Origin: Spirochaetia bacterium
GTDB taxonomy: Bacteria > Spirochaetota > Spirochaetia > Sphaerochaetales > Sphaerochaetaceae
NCBI GenBank assembly: GCA_022482625.1
Contig: JAKVOU010000001.1
Span: 186,001 to 250,000 of the forward strand
DNA: 64,000 nucleotides
Reading direction: 5' to 3'
Position numbers and translations under genes: made by a program. Below are positions 1,031 to 10,170 of this stretch, piece after piece; the first letter of the stretch is position 1; each line of letters opens with the position of its first letter. The notes beneath the pieces were generated by a model that worked only from the letters and a program-made list of their open reading frames with translations, was not told where the DNA came from and searched no databases.

Positions 1031-1949
1031 ACTTCGTTTTTGTGCAAAAAGTGCCTTCTCAAATCTCTTTACTGCCGATCAGGTTTGGGGGCAGATGGTA
1101 TGGGCAATTTCTGCCTTGGAAGGAGAAGCTGCTGCGACGAAGTTTGTCGAGGACTTTGATGAAGTACCACCTTTTGTGCTTTCTGCCATGATGCCGGAAG
1201 GTTTTTTGCCGAGGGTTGTGCTTCCTCCGATGCAATCGAAAGAAAAAATGAATGCTGTAGAGGAAAGAAAGGCTCGGGAAAGAGTAAAATCAAACAAGAA
1301 AAGGAAGTGGATTCCAATCAATACCTTGCTTGAAGTGCAGGATAATATTGCTTTGTTATCACAAAAAGAGATTCCTGGGAAGAAAGATCAAGAGGTGATA
1401 CAACCTGTCAATGAAGTACATGTTTCACTGGACCGTACTACCAATACGCCTTTTGAGGATGGGGGTTTGTATAACCAGCAATACTACATTTCAACAAAGC
1501 CATTGATTGTCTACGTTCGCCTTGATAGAGATGAAACGGAGTGGTCTGCATGGCTCAAGAAAATCTGTAAGTATCTTGAAGCCGTTGGCATCGGCGGAGA
1601 CCGTACTGTTGGTAAAGGAAGTTTTAGCATCAGCGTGGAAGAGCTTGATGAGAGTGAGCAGAAATTGTTTGACTACAAAGGTGGAAATGCATGGATATCG
1701 TTGAGCAGATGTGCGGGTAGGAATCTAAAGCCACTGTACTATACAATAAGTCTTTATGCTGGTATAACCGGTGGTTCTCTTACTGAGGCAAAGACCTATA
1801 ACAAGTATCCTGTACTCTACTATGAACCAGGTTCTTTGTTTGATGCCGGAGGAGGGACGGGAAGTCTGCTGCATCATGTTCAGGAAGACCCTAGAATCTG
1901 TTCATATGGTTATCTGTTTCCGCTTCCAGTGAGAAGCATTGGAGAGTGA
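1017..1949 (+). CDS. csm4: Csm4, Cas5-like RAMP subunit of type III-A
   Basis: Csm4 caps the 5' handle of the crRNA and binds Cas10 in the Csm complex. The protein begins MKYCKLRFCAKSAF, continues with a segment typical of Csm4 (FTADQVWGQMVWAI), has a central GIGGDRTVGKGSF glycine-rich loop, and ends near YGYLFPLPV. I chose the ATG at 1017 because GGAG at 1003-1006 sits about ten bases upstream; ATGs at 1008 and 1011 and a GTG at 981 are alternatives. It overlaps the end of csm3 by 14 bases, so translation is probably coupled. Confidence 0.92.
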   Translation: MKYCKLRFCAKSAFSNLFTADQVWGQMVWAISALEGEAAATKFVEDFDEVPPFVLSAMMPEGFLPRVVLPPMQSKEKMNAVEERKARERVKSNKKRKWIPINTLLEVQDNIALLSQKEIPGKKDQEVIQPVNEVHVSLDRTTNTPFEDGGLYNQQYYISTKPLIVYVRLDRDETEWSAWLKKICKYLEAVGIGGDRTVGKGSFSISVEELDESEQKLFDYKGGNAWISLSRCAGRNLKPLYYTISLYAGITGGSLTEAKTYNKYPVLYYEPGSLFDAGGGTGSLLHHVQEDPRICSYGYLFPLPVRSIGE

Positions 1950-3067
1950 TGATGGAAGAAAAATGGACAACGTATCCGGTTGTAGTAGAAATTATAACAC
2001 CGGTAATTATCAATACCGGAGAAGTATACGAATGTGGTGAGCTGTTCTATGATGAAAATGTAAAACGCCTGTATCAACTACGTGTCGATAATTTACTAGC
2101 TGCTATGAACAAAGAAGAAGCTGACCGATTTGTTCGTATCGTATCTACCGGTGTGACACAAAGAAATCCAATCCAGTTCCATGAGCAGATGAAGCTAGTA
2201 TCGACGGTCATAGGAAAACATCCTGACCAGTTGAGAAATATCATTGCAAGGCCGATGGGATTCACTGAAAATGGACAAAGGATGTTCAGTAAGAAACCTT
2301 GGTCGGAAGTTTCAAAGATTATGACACGTAAGTTTAATGAAAAACCATACTTGCCAGGTTCTTCGATCAAAGGAGCTCTTCGGACCGCAATACTTGAGCA
2401 GATGCGGGGAGTACAGGATTCTGATGGCTCGAAGTATACAGTAGTCCACAGTCAAGGTATGTACACTAAATATATCAAGAGCCAAGAACTTGATGCAAAG
2501 ATTCTTTCTGATAACAATTGGGCGCGTTTTGATATCAAAAGCGATCCATTCAAGTTTATTCGGGTAAGTGACTTTGATTTTTCCAGTCCACAGGCAAAAG
2601 TCATCTTGGGGCAAGTTTCTATTACGACTCATGCAGAACCGATTGAGTACTATACAGGTATGAGTGAGGCAACCTGTCTAGGGGAAGAATGCATGTATGC
2701 AGAAGGGAGTATTTCCATTTCATCTAGAATTAAGGAAACAGCTTTGAAAAGTTTTTTCTCAGTAGATGCTATCTTTCATGCAGTGGATGAATTTTACTTT
2801 GCTGCCTATAACAATCATCGGGAAAAACTTCCCATTTCCGTTGCAACGACAATGGACAAGTTGCTGCAACCTTACGTAGATAACAGAAAACCTTTGCTTC
2901 GTTTAGGAAAGTACAATGGCATTGAAAACAAAACCTACAATATCGACAGGGATTCTGATATTCGTCCTAAAATGCCACAGGATGCCAATAAGACAGGAAC
3001 TTCTTCATGTGCTACGGTAAACGGACGGTACTTGCCAGGATATTGCGTCATCTACAAGAAAAAGTAG
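1949..3067 (+). CDS. csm5: Csm5, RAMP subunit at the 3' end of the Csm complex
   Basis: Csm5 sits at the 3' end of the crRNA in the Csm complex and takes part in crRNA maturation. The N-terminal ITPVIINTG segment and the RAMP loop KPYLPGSSIKGALRTAI (about residues 130-147) identify it. The product is about 372 residues. The start codon overlaps the csm4 stop; GTG 1946, ATG 1949 and ATG 1952 share the ribosome site GGAGAG at 1941-1946, so the exact start is uncertain by one or two codons. Confidence 0.92.
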   Translation: MMEEKWTTYPVVVEIITPVIINTGEVYECGELFYDENVKRLYQLRVDNLLAAMNKEEADRFVRIVSTGVTQRNPIQFHEQMKLVSTVIGKHPDQLRNIIARPMGFTENGQRMFSKKPWSEVSKIMTRKFNEKPYLPGSSIKGALRTAILEQMRGVQDSDGSKYTVVHSQGMYTKYIKSQELDAKILSDNNWARFDIKSDPFKFIRVSDFDFSSPQAKVILGQVSITTHAEPIEYYTGMSEATCLGEECMYAEGSISISSRIKETALKSFFSVDAIFHAVDEFYFAAYNNHREKLPISVATTMDKLLQPYVDNRKPLLRLGKYNGIENKTYNIDRDSDIRPKMPQDANKTGTSSCATVNGRYLPGYCVIYKKK

Positions 3068-3080
3068 TGAGGAACACAAT

Positions 3081-4643
3081 ATGAAATTGATTGTAAACCT
3101 TGGAAACAGTGATCTTCGGGTAAAGTTGTCTGATGTTGATGGTTACTATGTATTCAGAAAAAGAGAAAACTATCTTGCAAATCTGAGGGAAGTTACCAAA
3201 GCCATTGATGCTGTTCCCGAAGTAAAGATTTCTGCTGATGGCATCGTAGAAGATGCATTGTGTATCGAGGGCAATACACATCAGATAAAAAGCATACAGT
3301 TTCCAATTCTTGCAGAGGAAATACATGCCATTGAAAAGGCAGAAGGCAAAATTCTGACAGATATCATCTGCTTTGTAACCATGCAGGAACCTGAAGTAGG
3401 AACCGATACCTATGGGCTTGCCAAGTTGTTGGATGGACCTGTTGGACAGCAATTGTTTCCAAATAGAAGATTTACGTTTGTCTGTATCAAGGAAAATCCT
3501 TCTGATTACGGAGCAATGATGGCTTACTATACAGCATTTTTCCATGATAGGGGGGATATTGCTGATATAGTGGTTTCCATTGCACAAGGAACTCCTGCCA
3601 TGTGTTTTGGCCTTTCTACAGGAATTGCCAAGCTAAGCCCGAATGTACATCAGTACTATGCTTCAAATAATTTCATGGATGACAAGATAAGAATCGTCAG
3701 ATTGGATTATTTTTCCAAAGCAGAAAAAGAACAGCAGATAGATAGATATTTTCAACTGATGGAAAGGGGTGATTATCCTTCTGCCTGCAATATGATCAAA
3801 GGATCGGTATTGGAAGGATATGCTTCAGTTGTACCTCTGACCCAGTACTATATTTACAGATCAAATTACCGTTTTGACGATGCTGTAAATTCTTTGGTTA
3901 AATTGGAACAGCTTGCATTTGCACCAAGACAGGTATCACTTGTAAAGGACAATGTAGAGCGGATTCTTTCTACACTTATCCCAGGTGATAAAGGAAAGTT
4001 TGATTTGGATTTCAATTCTGACAATTTTCCCTATGATTTGCTTGAAACGCTAGTAAATATCAGATTCAACTATCAGCATCAGAATTTTTTCCTTGCCATT
4101 GCGTTGATGACTTCATTCTTGGATGTCTTTGAAAATTTCCTTGTTTGCAGAGGACTTGGATTATCCAATATGGATTATAAAAGTTATCATTATCCATCTT
4201 TAGATTTGTATATAAAGGAACATATTGATGTGGATAAATTGTCAAATACGAAATATAGGGAACTTAAAGAGAATTGGAAACAAGACGAGAAGGGAGAATA
4301 TTACCTTAATATTAATGGGTTGTCCAGATATTGTATGTTGAAATGGATTTACGAAACAAATCCAAACTGTTCATTTGTTGTTTCTTATTTCCCTTTAGCG
4401 GAAAAACAAGGAAAATTTGCAGACTTGAGAAAGTTACGTAACCGTTTGCCTATTGCACACAGTGTTGATTCTATTTCTGAAATGAAAATAAACAAAACCT
4501 TAAAGGAAATTAATTTCATAGAATTGATGGACAGGTTTAAACACATTCTTGACGGTATGCTGTCCAAGGAGCAACCTCGTTTTCCTGATTATTTTTCTCA
4601 GCTGAAAGATTTTGAAACAGAACTCAGGGCGTACATAAAATGA
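3081..4643 (+). CDS. csm6: Csm6-type CARF-HEPN ribonuclease
   Basis: Csm6 is a stand-alone RNase switched on by cyclic oligoadenylate made by Cas10 when the Csm complex binds target RNA. The 520-residue protein starts with a Rossmann-like strand (LIVNLGNSD) and has a CARF-type loop at about 164-185 (SIAQGTPAMCFGLSTG). The C-terminal HEPN domain contains the catalytic R-x4-H motif, Arg455 to His460 in RNRLPIAH. It lies 14 bases after csm5 and overlaps cas1 by 4 bases, within the same operon. Family assignment is strong; which cyclic oligoadenylate it senses cannot be read from the sequence. Confidence 0.88.
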   Translation: MKLIVNLGNSDLRVKLSDVDGYYVFRKRENYLANLREVTKAIDAVPEVKISADGIVEDALCIEGNTHQIKSIQFPILAEEIHAIEKAEGKILTDIICFVTMQEPEVGTDTYGLAKLLDGPVGQQLFPNRRFTFVCIKENPSDYGAMMAYYTAFFHDRGDIADIVVSIAQGTPAMCFGLSTGIAKLSPNVHQYYASNNFMDDKIRIVRLDYFSKAEKEQQIDRYFQLMERGDYPSACNMIKGSVLEGYASVVPLTQYYIYRSNYRFDDAVNSLVKLEQLAFAPRQVSLVKDNVERILSTLIPGDKGKFDLDFNSDNFPYDLLETLVNIRFNYQHQNFFLAIALMTSFLDVFENFLVCRGLGLSNMDYKSYHYPSLDLYIKEHIDVDKLSNTKYRELKENWKQDEKGEYYLNINGLSRYCMLKWIYETNPNCSFVVSYFPLAEKQGKFADLRKLRNRLPIAHSVDSISEMKINKTLKEINFIELMDRFKHILDGMLSKEQPRFPDYFSQLKDFETELRAYIK

Positions 4644-5692
4644 TTGTGTATTTGGTATCAAACAATGGAACTTTAAAAAAGGAAAATGATGTACTGTTGT
4701 ACAGCGACTACAAAGGGAATGTGACTAAATTAATTCCTGAGAAAGTTTCACTGTTGATTATCATTGGAAAATTACAGATTACAGGTTCTGCTTTTCAGTT
4801 GATCTGCAGGCAAAAGATTCAATTGTTTTTCCTTTCCAAGAACGGTTTTGGCAATGGGAAATTTATCTATGGAGATAGCAAAAATACCTTGCTGAGGCAT
4901 AAACAGCATCAGTTATATGATAATTCACAAAGTGCATTGGCCATAGCAAAGGATATTGTTGCCGGGAAATTAAGCAATGAGTTTTATTTTTCCCAACGGA
5001 TTGCAAGGACCCGCAATTGTCAGGATATAAATAGTGATATAAGAACTATTCGTCAATTACATGATATGGTCGCTTCTTGCGATTCCATGGATGGTGTCCG
5101 GGGTATAGAAGGAAAAGCTGCTACATGTTATTTTAATTGTCTTGGACATAATTTTATTATTGATTGGACTAAGTTTTCAAAACGCACGAAAAATCCTCCT
5201 TTGGATGAAATCAATTCAGTGTTGAGTTTTTTATATACATTGGTTGCTAACAGAATTGATATTTTATTATTTCAAGAAGGTTTGGATGATTCTATCGGTT
5301 ATCTCCATGCACTTTCCTATGGACGCAAATCATTGGTGTTTGATTTGGAAGAAGAATTCAGGACACCGGTAGTTGATACTTTGGCTTGTGCTCTTTTTAA
5401 CAGAGGGGAGGTGGAACAGAATGATTTCGAAACTAAGGAAGATGAAGGTAATGAAGAGAACGGATCAAATGAAACTATTGAAAACAGAAGTTTGCGGAAA
5501 GGTGTCTATCTGACAGAGGGTGGTATGAAGAAAACGATTGCAGCATTTGAGAAAAAATTGCTTCAAGAACACTACTATCCGGAACTGAACAAGAAGCTGA
5601 GCTATGAAAAGATACTAGGTGAACAGGTAAAGCTTTTCAAAAGTGTAATCAGCGGAGATCGAGAACATTATGTTCCTTTTGTGGTGACGTGA
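4640..5692 (+). CDS. cas1: Cas1 integrase
   Basis: Cas1 with Cas2 inserts new spacers at the leader end of the array. The protein has 350 residues, in the family range. The metal-binding residues are visible: Glu157 in RGIEGKAA, His223 in GYLHALSYGRKSL, and the acidic cluster Asp235-Glu238 in FDLEEEF. There is an acidic low-complexity insert at about 258-280 (FETKEDEGNEENGS). The ATG overlaps the csm6 stop and the stop overlaps the cas2 start by 4 bases, giving a tightly coupled adaptation cassette. Confidence 0.96.
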   Translation: MIVYLVSNNGTLKKENDVLLYSDYKGNVTKLIPEKVSLLIIIGKLQITGSAFQLICRQKIQLFFLSKNGFGNGKFIYGDSKNTLLRHKQHQLYDNSQSALAIAKDIVAGKLSNEFYFSQRIARTRNCQDINSDIRTIRQLHDMVASCDSMDGVRGIEGKAATCYFNCLGHNFIIDWTKFSKRTKNPPLDEINSVLSFLYTLVANRIDILLFQEGLDDSIGYLHALSYGRKSLVFDLEEEFRTPVVDTLACALFNRGEVEQNDFETKEDEGNEENGSNETIENRSLRKGVYLTEGGMKKTIAAFEKKLLQEHYYPELNKKLSYEKILGEQVKLFKSVISGDREHYVPFVVT

Positions 5693-5967
5693 TGATATAC
5701 TTTTGTTGTTATGATATAACTGATGCCAGACGTCTGAAGAAAGTTGCCAAGACACTTGAAAAATGGGGAGTTCGTGTTCAGCGTTCATTTTTTTGCTGTG
5801 AAGAGGATTCTGATGCCATACAGGCTTTGTCGGCAGAAATAATAGCACAAATTGACCAGAAAGTAGATAAGTTCTGTGTGTATCCTATCTGTGATGCTTG
5901 TTTCAAAAAGATTGTATACTTCGGTTGTGATGCATCTTTCATAATGCCTGAATATATGATACTATGA
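5689..5967 (+). CDS. cas2: Cas2, first of two tandem copies
   Basis: Cas2 is the small ferredoxin-fold scaffold of the Cas1-Cas2 integrase. The 92-residue protein opens with the typical strand and Asp (FCCYDITDARR, Asp9) and keeps the R-V-Q-R-S-F segment that follows the first helix. It is unusually cysteine-rich for Cas2 (CC at 6-7, FFCCEE, CDACF). It overlaps cas1 at an ATGA and the next cas2 at another ATGA. Confidence 0.93.
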   Translation: MMIYFCCYDITDARRLKKVAKTLEKWGVRVQRSFFCCEEDSDAIQALSAEIIAQIDQKVDKFCVYPICDACFKKIVYFGCDASFIMPEYMIL

Positions 5968-6260
5968 AAAAAGTTAGGTTGTATCTGCTGGTCTATGATA
6001 TTACAAATGCACGGGTGTATCGGAAATTGTACAAAATCCTCGATTCTTATGTCTACCAAAGAATAGAGAAATCTGTTTTAGAGTTGACGTTGACCGATAT
6101 GGATTTGGTAAGATTACGACGCCAGTTAGGGAAGCTTTTCCCAGATGATGAGGAAAAGATAATATTGATTCCTGTCTGTAGGGATGACCAGAGCAAGGTG
6201 CGGGTATATGGCGCTGTCTGCAGAGAAAGTGTAAGTGAACCCGACTTTGTAATGTTGTAG
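5964..6260 (+). CDS. cas2: Cas2, second divergent copy
   Basis: This 98-residue protein is also Cas2-like: YLLVYDITNARVYRKL carries the conserved Asp12, followed by QRIEKSVLELTL and a C-terminal strand. It differs clearly from the copy just upstream in length, composition and C-terminus, so it is not a recent duplicate. The four-base overlap with cas2-1 means they are made together. It is the last gene before the leader. It could be a partner subunit for a Cas2 heterodimer or a Cas2-type RNase; the sequence alone does not decide. Confidence 0.9.
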   Translation: MKKVRLYLLVYDITNARVYRKLYKILDSYVYQRIEKSVLELTLTDMDLVRLRRQLGKLFPDDEEKIILIPVCRDDQSKVRVYGAVCRESVSEPDFVML

Positions 6261-6461
6261 CGCAGACCCCTGGTAGAGTAGCTTTTTGCCATTTTTACCG
6301 TAGGGTTCGCGAAGATTTGTAGGTATTTATATCGGAAGGAGTTAGCCATTATGTACCATTTTGATAAGAGCAAAAGTATGTATTGTTGGAAAGATACAGT
6401 GGGTAGATTCGCGCAGAAGGACGAACAACTTATTACAATGGTAAGAAATACAAAGAGTGGA
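6261..6461 (+). promoter_or_regulatory. CRISPR leader
   Basis: About 200 bases separate the last cas2 from the first repeat. The array decays at its far end (truncated repeat at 8139-8163), so this cas-proximal side is the leader, where transcription and new insertions are expected. No convincing -35/-10 pair is visible; TACAAT at 6434-6439 could be a -10. A small ORF with a good ribosome site lies inside (6351-6467). Confidence 0.7.
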
Positions 6462-6467
6462 GTCTAA
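6351..6467 (+). CDS. Possible 38-residue leader ORF ending in the first CRISPR repeat
   Basis: The sequence GGAAGGAG at 6334-6341 lies nine bases before an ATG that opens 38 codons (MYHFDKSKSMYCWKDTVGRF at the start). The stop TAA is formed by bases 4-6 of the first repeat. The predicted peptide is basic and polar and I do not recognise it. It may be chance, but a ribosome site of this quality just upstream of an array is unusual. Confidence 0.3.
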   Translation: MYHFDKSKSMYCWKDTVGRFAQKDEQLITMVRNTKSGV

Positions 6468-8163
6468 AGCTATTGACCTGTAGAAAGGGATTAAGACAGC
6501 GACCAGACAGAAACGGTCTTGTAATCGATGACATATCGTCTAAAGCTATTGACCTGTAGAAAGGGATTAAGACATCTGTTCAATTGCATCATAGACGATT
6601 TCTTCATCAATCTGTCTAAAGCTATTGACCTGTAGAAAGGGATTAAGACTGTCATCGCATCGATGTCTTTTGCCTCCGGGAATATCTTGTCTAAAGCTAT
6701 TGACCTGTAGAAAGGGATTAAGACTGGCGCACCGATGAAACTCAATGTGTACTCCGTACTCTCTGGTCTAAAGCTATTGACCTGTAGAAAGGGATTAAGA
6801 CAAAATCTTTTTTGTTTGGTTGACGCTGTATCAATCAACCTGTCTAAAGCTATTGACCTGTAGAAAGGGATTAAGACTCTTTTACTCCTCTTGCGGTTCA
6901 TATTCAAAAACTTCACCGTCTAAAGCTATTGACCTGTAGAAAGGGATTAAGACTATTTTTTAAATTCTGTCCAATAGGCTTTTTTACAAAATCCGTCTAA
7001 AGCTATTGACCTGTAGAAAGGGATTAAGACATCAGCCAAATTCCAACCGTAACGGTTAACATCTCTACCACTGTCTAAAGCTATTGACCTGTAGAAAGGG
7101 ATTAAGACTCCAATTCCATCGGGATTGTTATCGTCGATTAAAGCGCCACAAGTCTAAAGCTATTGACCTGTAGAAAGGGATTAAGACTAGTAGCCACATA
7201 GTAAGGATAATCCCTATCTTTACCTAAATCGTCTAAAGCTATTGACCTGTAGAAAGGGATTAAGACTGTCCTTGCCAAATGCCAATACTTTTTTGCCACC
7301 TTTGGTCTAAAGCTATTGACCTGTAGAAAGGGATTAAGACTAGTCATTATCAAAAGTGGCACTTACAGCGATGACATTATACAGTCTAAAGCTATTGACC
7401 TGTAGAAAGGGATTAAGACTTTACGACCTCAATTTTTTTAATCTCTTTTTTCATTTTTCGTCTAAAGCTATTGACCTGTAGAAAGGGATTAAGACTTTAC
7501 AGTTCTTGACATATTTTACTCCTTAAAAAAGTGTCTAAAGCTATTGACCTGTAGAAAGGGATTAAGACGCACCTGGTTGAAGGAGCCCTTCTCGTTTGCG
7601 AGATATGCGTGTCTAAAGCTATTGACCTGTAGAAAGGGATTAAGACCTGATTCTCTGACCAGCAATTACAACGTCCTTGAAATTGTCTAAAGCTATTGAC
7701 CTGTAGAAAGGGATTAAGACACTGGTTCAAGAGCCCTATATATTCTGCACGACTTATTGTCTAAAGCTATTGACCTGTAGAAAGGGATTAAGACCCATGC
7801 TCACACAGGTCCTTGTGCTCCTCAGGAGTCCTTGTCTAAAGCTATTGACCTGTAGAAAGGGATTAAGACGAAAACCCCTGAAATTTGTAAACCGTTATCG
7901 TAGGGATTGTCTAAAGCTATTGACCTGTAGAAAGGGATTAAGACAATGTCACTATCATCATCACACACCTCTCATTTTCTGGTCTAAAGCTATTGACCTG
8001 TAGAAAGGGATTAAGACAATCAGCCGCCTTTGCGGCCTCTTCGCCCGTCAAGAACAGGCAGGTCTAAAGCTATTGACCTGTAGAAAGGGATTAAGACCGC
8101 CCGTCAAGAACAGGCAGGCTTGCCTGTCTGTGATAGCTGTCTAAAGCTATTGACCTGTAGAAA
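6462..8163 (+). CRISPR. CRISPR array, 22 full 36-bp repeats plus one truncated repeat, 22 spacers
   Basis: The repeat begins GTCTAAAGCTATTGACC and ends GGGATTAAGAC. Full copies start at 6462, 6538, 6614, 6689, 6766, 6842, 6918, 6995, 7073, 7152, 7231, 7305, 7384, 7460, 7533, 7611, 7685, 7759, 7834, 7909, 7982 and 8062; the last, at 8139, stops after 25 bases. I saw no variant among the full copies. Spacers are 37 to 44 bases, as is common for type III. The last eight bases, ATTAAGAC, resemble the ATTGAAAC-type 5' handle, so the crRNA is read on the plus strand, away from the cas genes. Confidence 0.98.
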
Positions 8164-8235
8164 CATATAACAAGGGATGTTTTTGTAATACTCGAAACTA
8201 ATTGATTAGGGTGAATAAATATACAGTTATCCCGG

Positions 8236-8377
8236 CCTGTCCGCGGGCATATCGGACACAGGGGCTATATAGCCTAGTGGACATACTTGCCGTGAGGACG
8301 GCACAGCTGCTGTATGGATATGCATTATTCATGAATATTTTTAGCTCCGAACGACACAGTGCGTAGTTCGGGGCTAA
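8236..8377. other. Cluster of four stem-loops after the array
   Basis: Four inverted repeats follow each other in a GC-richer patch inside AT-rich sequence: 8236-8243 with 8253-8262 (8 bp, two-base bulge); the palindrome GGCTATATAGCC at 8263-8274; TGCCGT-GAGG-ACGGCA at 8288-8303; and a 12-bp stem, 8341-8352 with 8366-8377. No T-run follows on either strand, so none is a classical terminator. It could be a structured RNA, regulatory leader remnant or decayed gene; the rest of 8164-8414 shows nothing recognisable. Confidence 0.4.
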
Positions 8378-8414
8378 GAAATCCAAATACCTCGTAGCTT
8401 GCACGGAAGAGGAT

Positions 8415-8789
8415 TCATTTACTGGTTGCCTTGTCTAGTTCTTTAAACTTTTCGAAAGTCTCCGGGCTTACCAAATGTTCTAAATGGCGAGCATCTTCAT
8501 GAGCGGCTTTTGCCCCAACTTTGAGGACATGCGTTAGAAAGTCTTCGATTATCACTTGGCGTTCAAATATGGAAGTAGCATATTTTTGTCCACTTTTTGT
8601 TAGAACAAGGTTGTGATGTTCGTCGATATCAATCAAACCTTCATTATGAAGTCTTTTAATTGCATTGCTGACACTTGGTTTTGAGACTCCAAGTTCATTT
8701 GCAACGTTGATGGAACGGACAGAACCAAGCTTACGCTGCAGCAGAAAAATTGTTTTCAGATAGGTTTTGGAAGATTTACTGATTTGCAT
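8415..8789 (-). CDS. DtxR/MntR-family metal-dependent transcriptional regulator
   Basis: The 124-residue protein has an N-terminal winged helix (VRSINVANELGVSKPSVSNAIKRL, about 24-47) and a wing (GLIDIDEHHNLVLTKSG), then a helical dimerisation part ending HEDARHLEHLVSPETFEKF with the His and Glu residues that bind metal in this family. It lacks the C-terminal SH3-like domain, as MntR does. It is the last gene of a three-gene minus-strand unit and overlaps the upstream gene by 14 bases. It probably senses Mn or Fe; its targets are not visible in the window. Confidence 0.88.
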   Translation of the reverse strand: MQISKSSKTYLKTIFLLQRKLGSVRSINVANELGVSKPSVSNAIKRLHNEGLIDIDEHHNLVLTKSGQKYATSIFERQVIIEDFLTHVLKVGAKAAHEDARHLEHLVSPETFEKFKELDKATSK

Positions 8790-9114
8790 TTTTCCGGCAC
8801 AATTGCATTTGATAGCTACCTTGAGAATTCAGTACCTGCAATTTGCAGCTTACAGGCTCTATACCATATACTTGGCGTTTATCCATAGAATTATCACCAT
8901 CACTGACATGGTATATATTCTGTATGCTTTGACCGCTCAGTTTACCGATCTCAAGTATAAAGGACTGTTTCTCACAATTTTGCCAATTGTTCTCTAAGGC
9001 AAGTTTCCAAAGATAATCAACCAGAATATCTGGAAGGATGACCTTTATGTTGGATGCTACCGATAAGTCCACATTACTGCATATAGTCAGATTCTTAGTT
9101 ATCGCTTTCATCAT
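8776..9114 (-). CDS. Uncharacterised small protein between two regulators
   Basis: This 112-residue ORF overlaps both its neighbours (20 bases with the MarR gene, 14 with the DtxR gene), which argues that it is translated. The fold is not obvious; segments such as ILPDILVDYLWKLALE and SFILEIGKLSGQSIQNIYHV faintly recall the DUF960 family, but I would not rely on that. It has no signal peptide or membrane segment. Context suggests a role linked to the two regulators. Confidence 0.6.
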   Translation of the reverse strand: MMKAITKNLTICSNVDLSVASNIKVILPDILVDYLWKLALENNWQNCEKQSFILEIGKLSGQSIQNIYHVSDGDNSMDKRQVYGIEPVSCKLQVLNSQGSYQMQLCRKNANQ

Positions 9115-9730
9115 TTTCAGTTTCTTCTCCCATGAATGGCCTCATCTCATCCCTATAGTGCCTGCGTCCCCTGGTACGTCTGGAACTATGCCTGTAGCGA
9201 TTATAATCGGTGTCGGTATGTTGCCAATTTCCATAGATTTTTCCATAGTAAGACATAAAATCTTCCATATACTTACGGCGGTTCTCAAAATCAACATCAG
9301 GAAATTGCTTCTCATATTGCTTGATGATGCGTTCCAAGTATTCGCTGAAAGTAGATAATTCATCATCATTCAGGCACTCAAAGACTTTTAAGACATCCGA
9401 TTCGTTTTCATTCGTGTCCTCTGTGACTTTTGCACCGGCCTCAGTCAGATGAATAATCATGATCCGTTTGTCGTCCTCTGAGACCTCACGGGTTATATAG
9501 CCACTTCTTTCAAGTTTCGTAAGTAGTTCTGCAACTGATTGTTTGCTCATGTTAAGCAGATACGTCAGTTCTTTTTGGCTGATTGTCGGTTTCAATTTAA
9601 GGATTGCCAATACTCTGCCTTGTCCTCTGTGCGGGTTATGTGTGCTGCCTAAATGGCTGATCATTGTACGGTGCATAAGCATATGAAGCTGTTGTAGCTG
9701 TCCAATGATAGTATCTGTAATTTCATTCAT
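9095..9730 (-). CDS. MarR-family transcriptional regulator with arginine-rich tail
   Basis: A 211-residue MarR-type winged-helix repressor: recognition region QKELTYLLNMSKQSVAELLTKLERSGYI and wing EVSEDDKRIMIIHLTEAG. The C-terminal 50 residues (after about 160) are an unusual extension rich in Arg, Tyr and acidic residues. The ATG at 9730 has AGGAG about ten bases upstream on the minus strand. Three operator-like repeats cover its promoter, so autoregulation is likely. It heads a three-gene operon with the unknown protein and the DtxR regulator. Confidence 0.88.
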   Translation of the reverse strand: MNEITDTIIGQLQQLHMLMHRTMISHLGSTHNPHRGQGRVLAILKLKPTISQKELTYLLNMSKQSVAELLTKLERSGYITREVSEDDKRIMIIHLTEAGAKVTEDTNENESDVLKVFECLNDDELSTFSEYLERIIKQYEKQFPDVDFENRRKYMEDFMSYYGKIYGNWQHTDTDYNRYRHSSRRTRGRRHYRDEMRPFMGEETENDESDN

Positions 9731-9762
9731 AGTTATATTCTCCTATTGACATTTGTTAGATT

Positions 9763-9825
9763 AGTCAAGCGCCTGACTTTATAATTAGTATGGCGCCTGA
9801 CTAATTTAATGTCAAGTACCTGACT
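9763..9825 (-). promoter_or_regulatory. Promoter of the MarR operon with three tandem operator sites
   Basis: Three copies of an AGTCA-N6-TGACT pattern occur: 9763-9778 (perfect), 9787-9802 (AGTAT half, also inside TTAGT-N10-ACTAA) and 9810-9825 (TGTCA half). They are spaced 24 and 23 bases apart. A minus-strand promoter TTGACA (9815-9810), 17-base spacer and CATACT (9792-9787) lies directly under copies 2 and 3, so a protein bound there would block polymerase. Confidence 0.7.
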
Positions 9826-9830
9826 GTATT

Positions 9831-10170
9831 TTTTTTTACACCTGAGAGGACTTTACTTCAGATCAGAAGAAGGTAAGAAAACTTTTGAAAGAGGACGGAT
9901 AAGTTGAATGAGTGTACTTTAGACAGACTTTGCTATATAGGTTTTGGGTTGCATCATAATGATGGCAGGCTACAAAAAGAGGAAAGAGAAGATACCTGTT
10001 GCCCCGAAAAATCAAGGCAGCACTAGTTGCCGATATACCATGGCAAAAAGTGAGTTCAAGTTGTCATGTCGTTTCCTTTTGTCTGTTACTGACAACCTGG
10101 ACTGCATTGTAATTAACTGTTTTCTTCAATGGCAAAAATACATTTGCTTCTTTTATATGGCTTTAAGGGT
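9831..10170. other. Non-coding stretch between two minus-strand units
   Basis: Apart from a T-run at 9830-9837 I see no gene, RNA or strong repeat here. A plus-strand ORF that runs through it continues as the antisense shadow of the XdhC-YqeB gene and is not credible. Confidence 0.5.

Follow-up and report, generated by a model that had tools for sequence, protein, structure and literature searches.

The usual adaptation module of a CRISPR-Cas system has one cas2 gene, and the solved Cas1–Cas2 integrases have, to our knowledge, a two-fold symmetric Cas2 core in which both subunits are products of the same gene. Type III systems need antisense guides, and how their spacers come to be correctly oriented without Cas4 or a PAM is an open question. 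The Cas1–Cas2 complex is described as four Cas1 with two Cas2 monomers, and the strand bias of one RT-free type III system has been ascribed to counter-selection (both PMC9048733). Strain V4 is reported to have two Cas2 proteins and a truncated cas1, in a passage that does not state whether the genes are adjacent (PMC6688271), and a case of fragmented cas2 is also on record (PMC6371046). The passages on cas2 in the 2025 classification make no mention of two Cas2s (PMC12669027). A description of a two-Cas2 module was not found in the open-licence literature, including passages of PMC6753606, which is weak evidence of novelty.

The locus considered here lies in a window of 64,000 nucleotides (the whole stretch of DNA analysed, from a Spirochaetia bacterium). 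It shares with known type III-A (Csm) systems cas6, cas10, csm2–5, a CARF–HEPN effector, cas1 and a long array of 36-nt repeats, and differs from them in having two families of cas2. Compared with the Cas1–Cas2 integrase hexamers – from E. coli (4QDL), from type I-C (8D3L) and in the form of Cas6–RT-Cas1–Cas2 (7KFT) – the window proteins belong to the same Cas2 family by sequence, and the Cas2 folds of these structures are matched by a modelled orthologous pair. The RT-Cas1/Cas2 modules of type III offer a further comparison: two such loci in Nitrospirota (L099 and L107) likewise carry two cas2 genes, yet their pair arose separately, and an RT domain is absent from the Cas1 of the window.

The type III-A operon and its two cas2 genes

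Read together with the stretch upstream (L007), the window contains a complete type III-A operon and a 23-repeat array, in the order cas6, cas10, csm2, csm3, csm4, csm5, a Csx1/Csm6-like gene, cas1, cas2a, cas2b and array, with all window features on the + strand. NCBIfam models identify csm2 (the 3′ part, positions 1–377, the gene starting upstream of the window; 52.5 bits), csm3 (380–1030; 206 bits), csm4 (981–1949; 113 bits) and csm5 (1946–3067; 66 bits), which with the adjacent array place the locus in type III-A; cas6 and cas10, 5′ of csm2 (L007 ORFs 6666–7544 and 7551–9977, the latter of 808 aa), owe their names to size, gene order and homology between loci rather than to a family search. 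The 520-aa CARF–HEPN ancillary effector (3081–4643) is recognised by PADLOC as Csx1 (E 3.8e-21) and Csx1/Csm6 (E 1.5e-20) and has no Pfam or NCBIfam match.

The intact cas1 gene (4640–5692) encodes a 350-aa integrase (Pfam Cas_Cas1, 237 bits; NCBIfam cas1, 220 bits) in which Cas_Cas1 is the only Pfam domain, and which is thus not an RT-Cas1. Behind it, in place of the single cas2 of a standard adaptation module, stand two intact cas2 genes: cas2a (5689–5967), which begins either at a GTG at 5689 (92 aa) or at an ATG at 5692 (91 aa), the equivalent of the latter being the start in most orthologues, and cas2b (5964–6260; 98 aa). Then follow a putative leader-side region (6261–6461), delimited by the repeat positions and assigned its side because the repeat at the opposite end of the array is degenerate, and the array itself (6462–8174), which comprises 23 36-nt repeats, the degenerate one (at 8139) being the last. 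Its spacers average 40.2 nt, and all 21 measured ones are distinct. Since the other two Cas2 matches of the window genome lie far apart, cas2a and cas2b are its only adjacent pair. Of these two further cas2 loci (L175, 2151–5417; L008), one lies next to an array of 50 repeats from a different repeat family.

That two cas2 genes lie in tandem beside one cas1, as claimed in an earlier note on this DNA, is borne out: both reading frames are present, and both products exceed the cut-offs of the Cas2 family models, namely Pfam PF09827 (Cas2a 69.1 bits, Cas2b 54.3 bits; cut-off 23.8) and NCBIfam TIGR01573 (46.0 and 50.2 bits; cut-off 24.5). Their strong divergence is equally evident, with 23% identity in a joint alignment, and each is told apart by HMMs of the two families, in whose respective training sets the window proteins were included (window Cas2a, 118 bits with the Cas2a HMM versus 71 with the Cas2b HMM; window Cas2b, 92 versus 40 bits in favour of Cas2b). 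Both keep the first-strand Asp that the note had pointed out – in Cas2a Asp9 counted from the GTG (Asp8 if the ATG at 5692 is the start), in Cas2b Asp12 – as part of a YD motif at the end of the strand, whose Tyr and Asp are invariant in 21 of 21 aligned Cas2a and 21 of 21 aligned Cas2b sequences. The cysteine richness of the first copy holds as well, with eight Cys in the window Cas2a (counted by eye) and three to seven in Cas2a of other pair loci; two of the eight form a CxxC that is a family trait, invariant in all 21 aligned Cas2a proteins and lacking from most Cas2b. Of the ATGA overlaps said to couple the three genes, the one between cas2a and cas2b is real, but the junction of cas1 and cas2a reads GTGA or, with the ATG at 5692, is a 1-nt TGATG overlap.

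Profiles of both families match solved Cas2 chains. An AlphaFold2 model of an orthologous pair that is naturally in frame (L069), read through its stop, has a pTM of 0.73, with two Cas2 cores (block pLDDT 71–90) and both C-terminal tails below pLDDT 50; Cas2 structures are its top matches in the PDB, so that this orthologous pair is predicted to have the ferredoxin-like Cas2 fold. The pTM is compatible with a heterodimer and is no proof of one. A model of Cas1–Cas2a–Cas2b is of poor confidence (pLDDT 57.8, pTM 0.43) and uninformative.

Distribution and history of the pair

A survey of related genomes, as the earlier note had proposed, found the order cas1–cas2a–cas2b in 40 loci (window included), mostly from spirochaetes. 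A congener (G001) and another member of the family (G082) have an identical gene order, with both cas2 copies open. Across the phylum, a Cas2 match is present in 168 of 392 genomes, and in at least 17 of these 168 – the window genome not counted – two matches lie side by side on the same strand, judged by coordinates; cas1 precedes the pair in all 18 loci inspected (those 17 and one in G460). When GTDB contigs were scanned with a Cas2a profile, 80 of 181 confirmed loci were kept, of which 34 carry a pair, a share biased by the choice of Cas2a as bait. An apparent thirty-fifth pair (L087) sits on a contig that starts inside cas2a, and in the rest of the 80, among them a broken locus (L090), a second cas2 was not detected. 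The removal of four duplicate loci left 44 pairs; also set aside were L087, L090, whose cas1 is broken, and L065 and L102, which are without a usable cas1.

By title, the pair loci belong to Spirochaetota (the majority), Calditrichota, Acidobacteriota, Fibrobacterota, Tharpellota, Acidulodesulfobacteriota, Pseudomonadota/Deltaproteobacteria and Nitrospirota, labels that may be wrong because most of the loci come from metagenome-assembled genomes; those labelled ‘Proteobacteria’ and ‘Deltaproteobacteria’ are near-copies of the Tharpella locus. The genes are closely packed, with at most 20 nt between cas1 and cas2a in 19 of 20 measured pair loci (259 nt in L055) and at most 42 nt between cas2a and cas2b in all 20. 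The pair does not appear to be plasmid-borne (34 plasmid records, all matches below 60% identity, the 20 listed being ordinary cas2 annotations) or phage-borne (no phage matches, and no relatives in viral contigs). One Chloroflexota (Viridilinea) locus (L138, 1287–2072) has its Cas2 at the end of a 261-aa ORF, behind an N-terminal extension of about 168 residues without a Pfam match.

In the Cas1 tree, the 40 pair rows, including the window, and six rows with a lone Cas2 form one clade (100/100). Three two-cas2 loci of Nitrospirota stand apart: L099 (1823–2397) and L107 (10001–10542), behind an RT-Cas1 whose fusion is confirmed by RVT_1 and Cas_Cas1 domains, and L102 (272–825). The Cas2s of all three belong to neither the main Cas2a nor the main Cas2b group. 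As the two Nitrospirota RT-Cas1 rows fall outside the pair clade, and the Nitrospirota Cas2s are placed among single Cas2s, the pair arose at least twice.

All 22 Cas2b group together in the 60-row Cas2 tree (99/99). Left unconstrained, the 22 Cas2a fail to form a clade, yet forcing them together raises the likelihood slightly (p-AU 0.61), so that Cas2a is compatible with a single clade. The earlier note had named a recent duplication as something that would refute its proposals; against such a duplication speak the Cas2b clade, which extends across phyla, the gathering of the 40 pair loci within a single clade of Cas1, and the rejection, if a weak one, of a tree that makes the two window copies sisters (p-AU 0.04). 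A duplication confined to the window’s family is disfavoured yet not rejected by the Cas2 tree (p-AU 0.12).

Both cas2a and cas2b are under strong purifying selection, with dN/dS of 0.01–0.19 in all computable comparisons, and the distances of Cas2a are correlated with those of Cas2b (r 0.83), also when Cas1 is taken into account (partial r 0.54). Being ancient and conserved, the pair is a real module. Residue-level covariation between the partners, for which 5 of the 40 pairs were dropped as near-copies, gave no such signal: the mutual information between Cas2a and Cas2b is matched or exceeded in 30 of 100 simulations under a phylogenetic null, and the co-variation of the C-terminal tails, striking by eye, is not significant on shuffling, last residues matching within 25 of 35 pairs versus 21.7 expected (550 of 10000 shuffles as high).

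Loci with a single Cas2

Cas1 profiles built from the pair loci, searched against 394 genomes of one class, recovered 18 loci of the pair clade (at least 278 bits, followed by a gap down to 228), with an intact pair in 13 and a single Cas2 in five. Together with one from L057, these make six lone loci, which lie at separate places in the Cas1 tree; the simplest reading is that one Cas2 was lost at least five separate times on supported branches. By HMM score, Cas2a was retained alone in L152, L153 and L157 and Cas2b alone in L155, L156 and L057x. The assignment of L153 is the least clear (101 bits for Cas2a versus 84 for Cas2b), and L157 scores low with both HMMs (64.5 for Cas2a versus 56.5). 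In L157 (within L040), a broken cas2b follows cas2a. Broken copies occur in two family members – cas2b in G004 and cas2a in G026. In the latter genome (L041, 4177–5770), a single cas2 and a 236-aa ORF come just ahead of repeat-like sequence, the tail of a broken cas2a and an orphan cas2b that is intact; the layout looks as though another CRISPR locus had entered the remains of a III-A locus by recombination.

Arrays accompany all five lone loci checked (L152, L153, L155, L156 and L157, seen in L170, L171, L172, L173 and L040), although an array is a sign of past acquisition, not of uptake still working. The earlier note had reckoned its proposals damaged by relatives that lack one copy, or hold it degraded, while acquisition goes on; such relatives with arrays do exist, but the copy lost may be either one. 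Either family, evidently, can serve as the sole Cas2 of a pair-clade Cas1. These losses argue against a strictly obligate heterodimer and also against a second Cas2 with another job, and, with arrays persisting, they suggest that Cas2a and Cas2b are both integrase subunits. Of the two possibilities raised in the note, a heterodimer or a second Cas2 with a different task, the first remains the likeliest reading, and the second fares poorly.

Readings of the two-Cas2 module

On balance, we lean towards the reading that this is a type III-A adaptation module with two ancient, specialised Cas2s, which probably form a Cas2a–Cas2b heterodimer in an asymmetric Cas1–Cas2 integrase. The overlap of their genes would keep Cas2a and Cas2b at a fixed ratio, and the one Cas1 would serve both. 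A Cas2a and a Cas2b would pair via the dimer face usual for Cas2, each of them binding a Cas1 dimer, to give a Cas1–Cas2a–Cas2b–Cas1 integrase with two unlike halves. The asymmetry may itself have a role, since the halves could tell apart the two ends of a prespacer, or the leader side from the opposite one. The heterodimer, though unproven, is the likeliest arrangement in view of the coupling of the genes in a fixed order, the correlation of distances beyond Cas1 and the precedent of the Cas2 dimer; the repeated losses of one Cas2 mean that it would not be indispensable over evolution.

Mere redundancy should not keep both copies under strong selection over such distances, which leaves either a partnership or two parallel homodimeric integrases. 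Cas1–Cas2a and Cas1–Cas2b as alternative integrases, differing in their prespacers or conditions, would agree with the purifying selection on both copies and with the lone loci, where either Cas2 persists with an array and so evidently works with Cas1. We nonetheless consider them rather unlikely, as the tight, fixed-order coupling of often overlapping genes fits a fixed-ratio partnership better, and Cas2a and Cas2b track each other beyond Cas1.

Less probable still is a division in which one Cas2 is the integrase subunit and the other serves an unrelated purpose, such as that of a nuclease or of a toxin-like or regulatory protein. A Cas2/VapD nuclease sub-family outside adaptation has been described (PMC10491678), and the CxxC conserved in Cas2a and missing from most Cas2b would suit such a split, but three loci are Cas2a-like only and three Cas2b-like only, with arrays in the five checked, so that no fixed division fits both, and the first-strand Asp is invariant in each family. 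Were there a single integrase Cas2, acquisition should end with its loss, whereas either family survives alone. A last possibility, that one copy merely persists, neutrally or in decay, after a duplication or recruitment, would explain the broken cas2b and cas2a in two family members; it seems very improbable given the low dN/dS of both copies, the intact pairs in 13 of the 18 loci of the Cas1-baited search of one class, and the deep split between Cas2a and Cas2b.

The favoured reading – two specialised Cas2s in an asymmetric integrase – can be pushed further, if only tentatively. A widespread type III integrase clade might be built on an obligate Cas2a–Cas2b heterodimer whose asymmetry marks one prespacer end or the leader side and so sets spacer polarity or the preferred substrate, a solution that might have evolved twice (in this clade and with the RT-Cas1 of Nitrospirota); the slightly shorter spacers after Cas2 loss might reflect a changed ruler. 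The conserved module offers a natural asymmetric integrase to test, and the natural losses of either subunit provide ready comparisons.

Spacer length bears on the idea of a changed ruler. Arrays beside pairs have a median spacer of 39.7 nt (26 loci) and those beside lone Cas2s one of 37.8 nt (5 loci; Mann–Whitney p 0.026), a difference that, coming from a post hoc comparison with hand-set repeat lengths and uncorrected for relatedness, is only a lead. Judged by eye, a long acidic loop precedes the last part of Cas1 in most of the pair loci compared; the loop is short in four of the six lone-Cas2 loci and also in one pair locus (L039).
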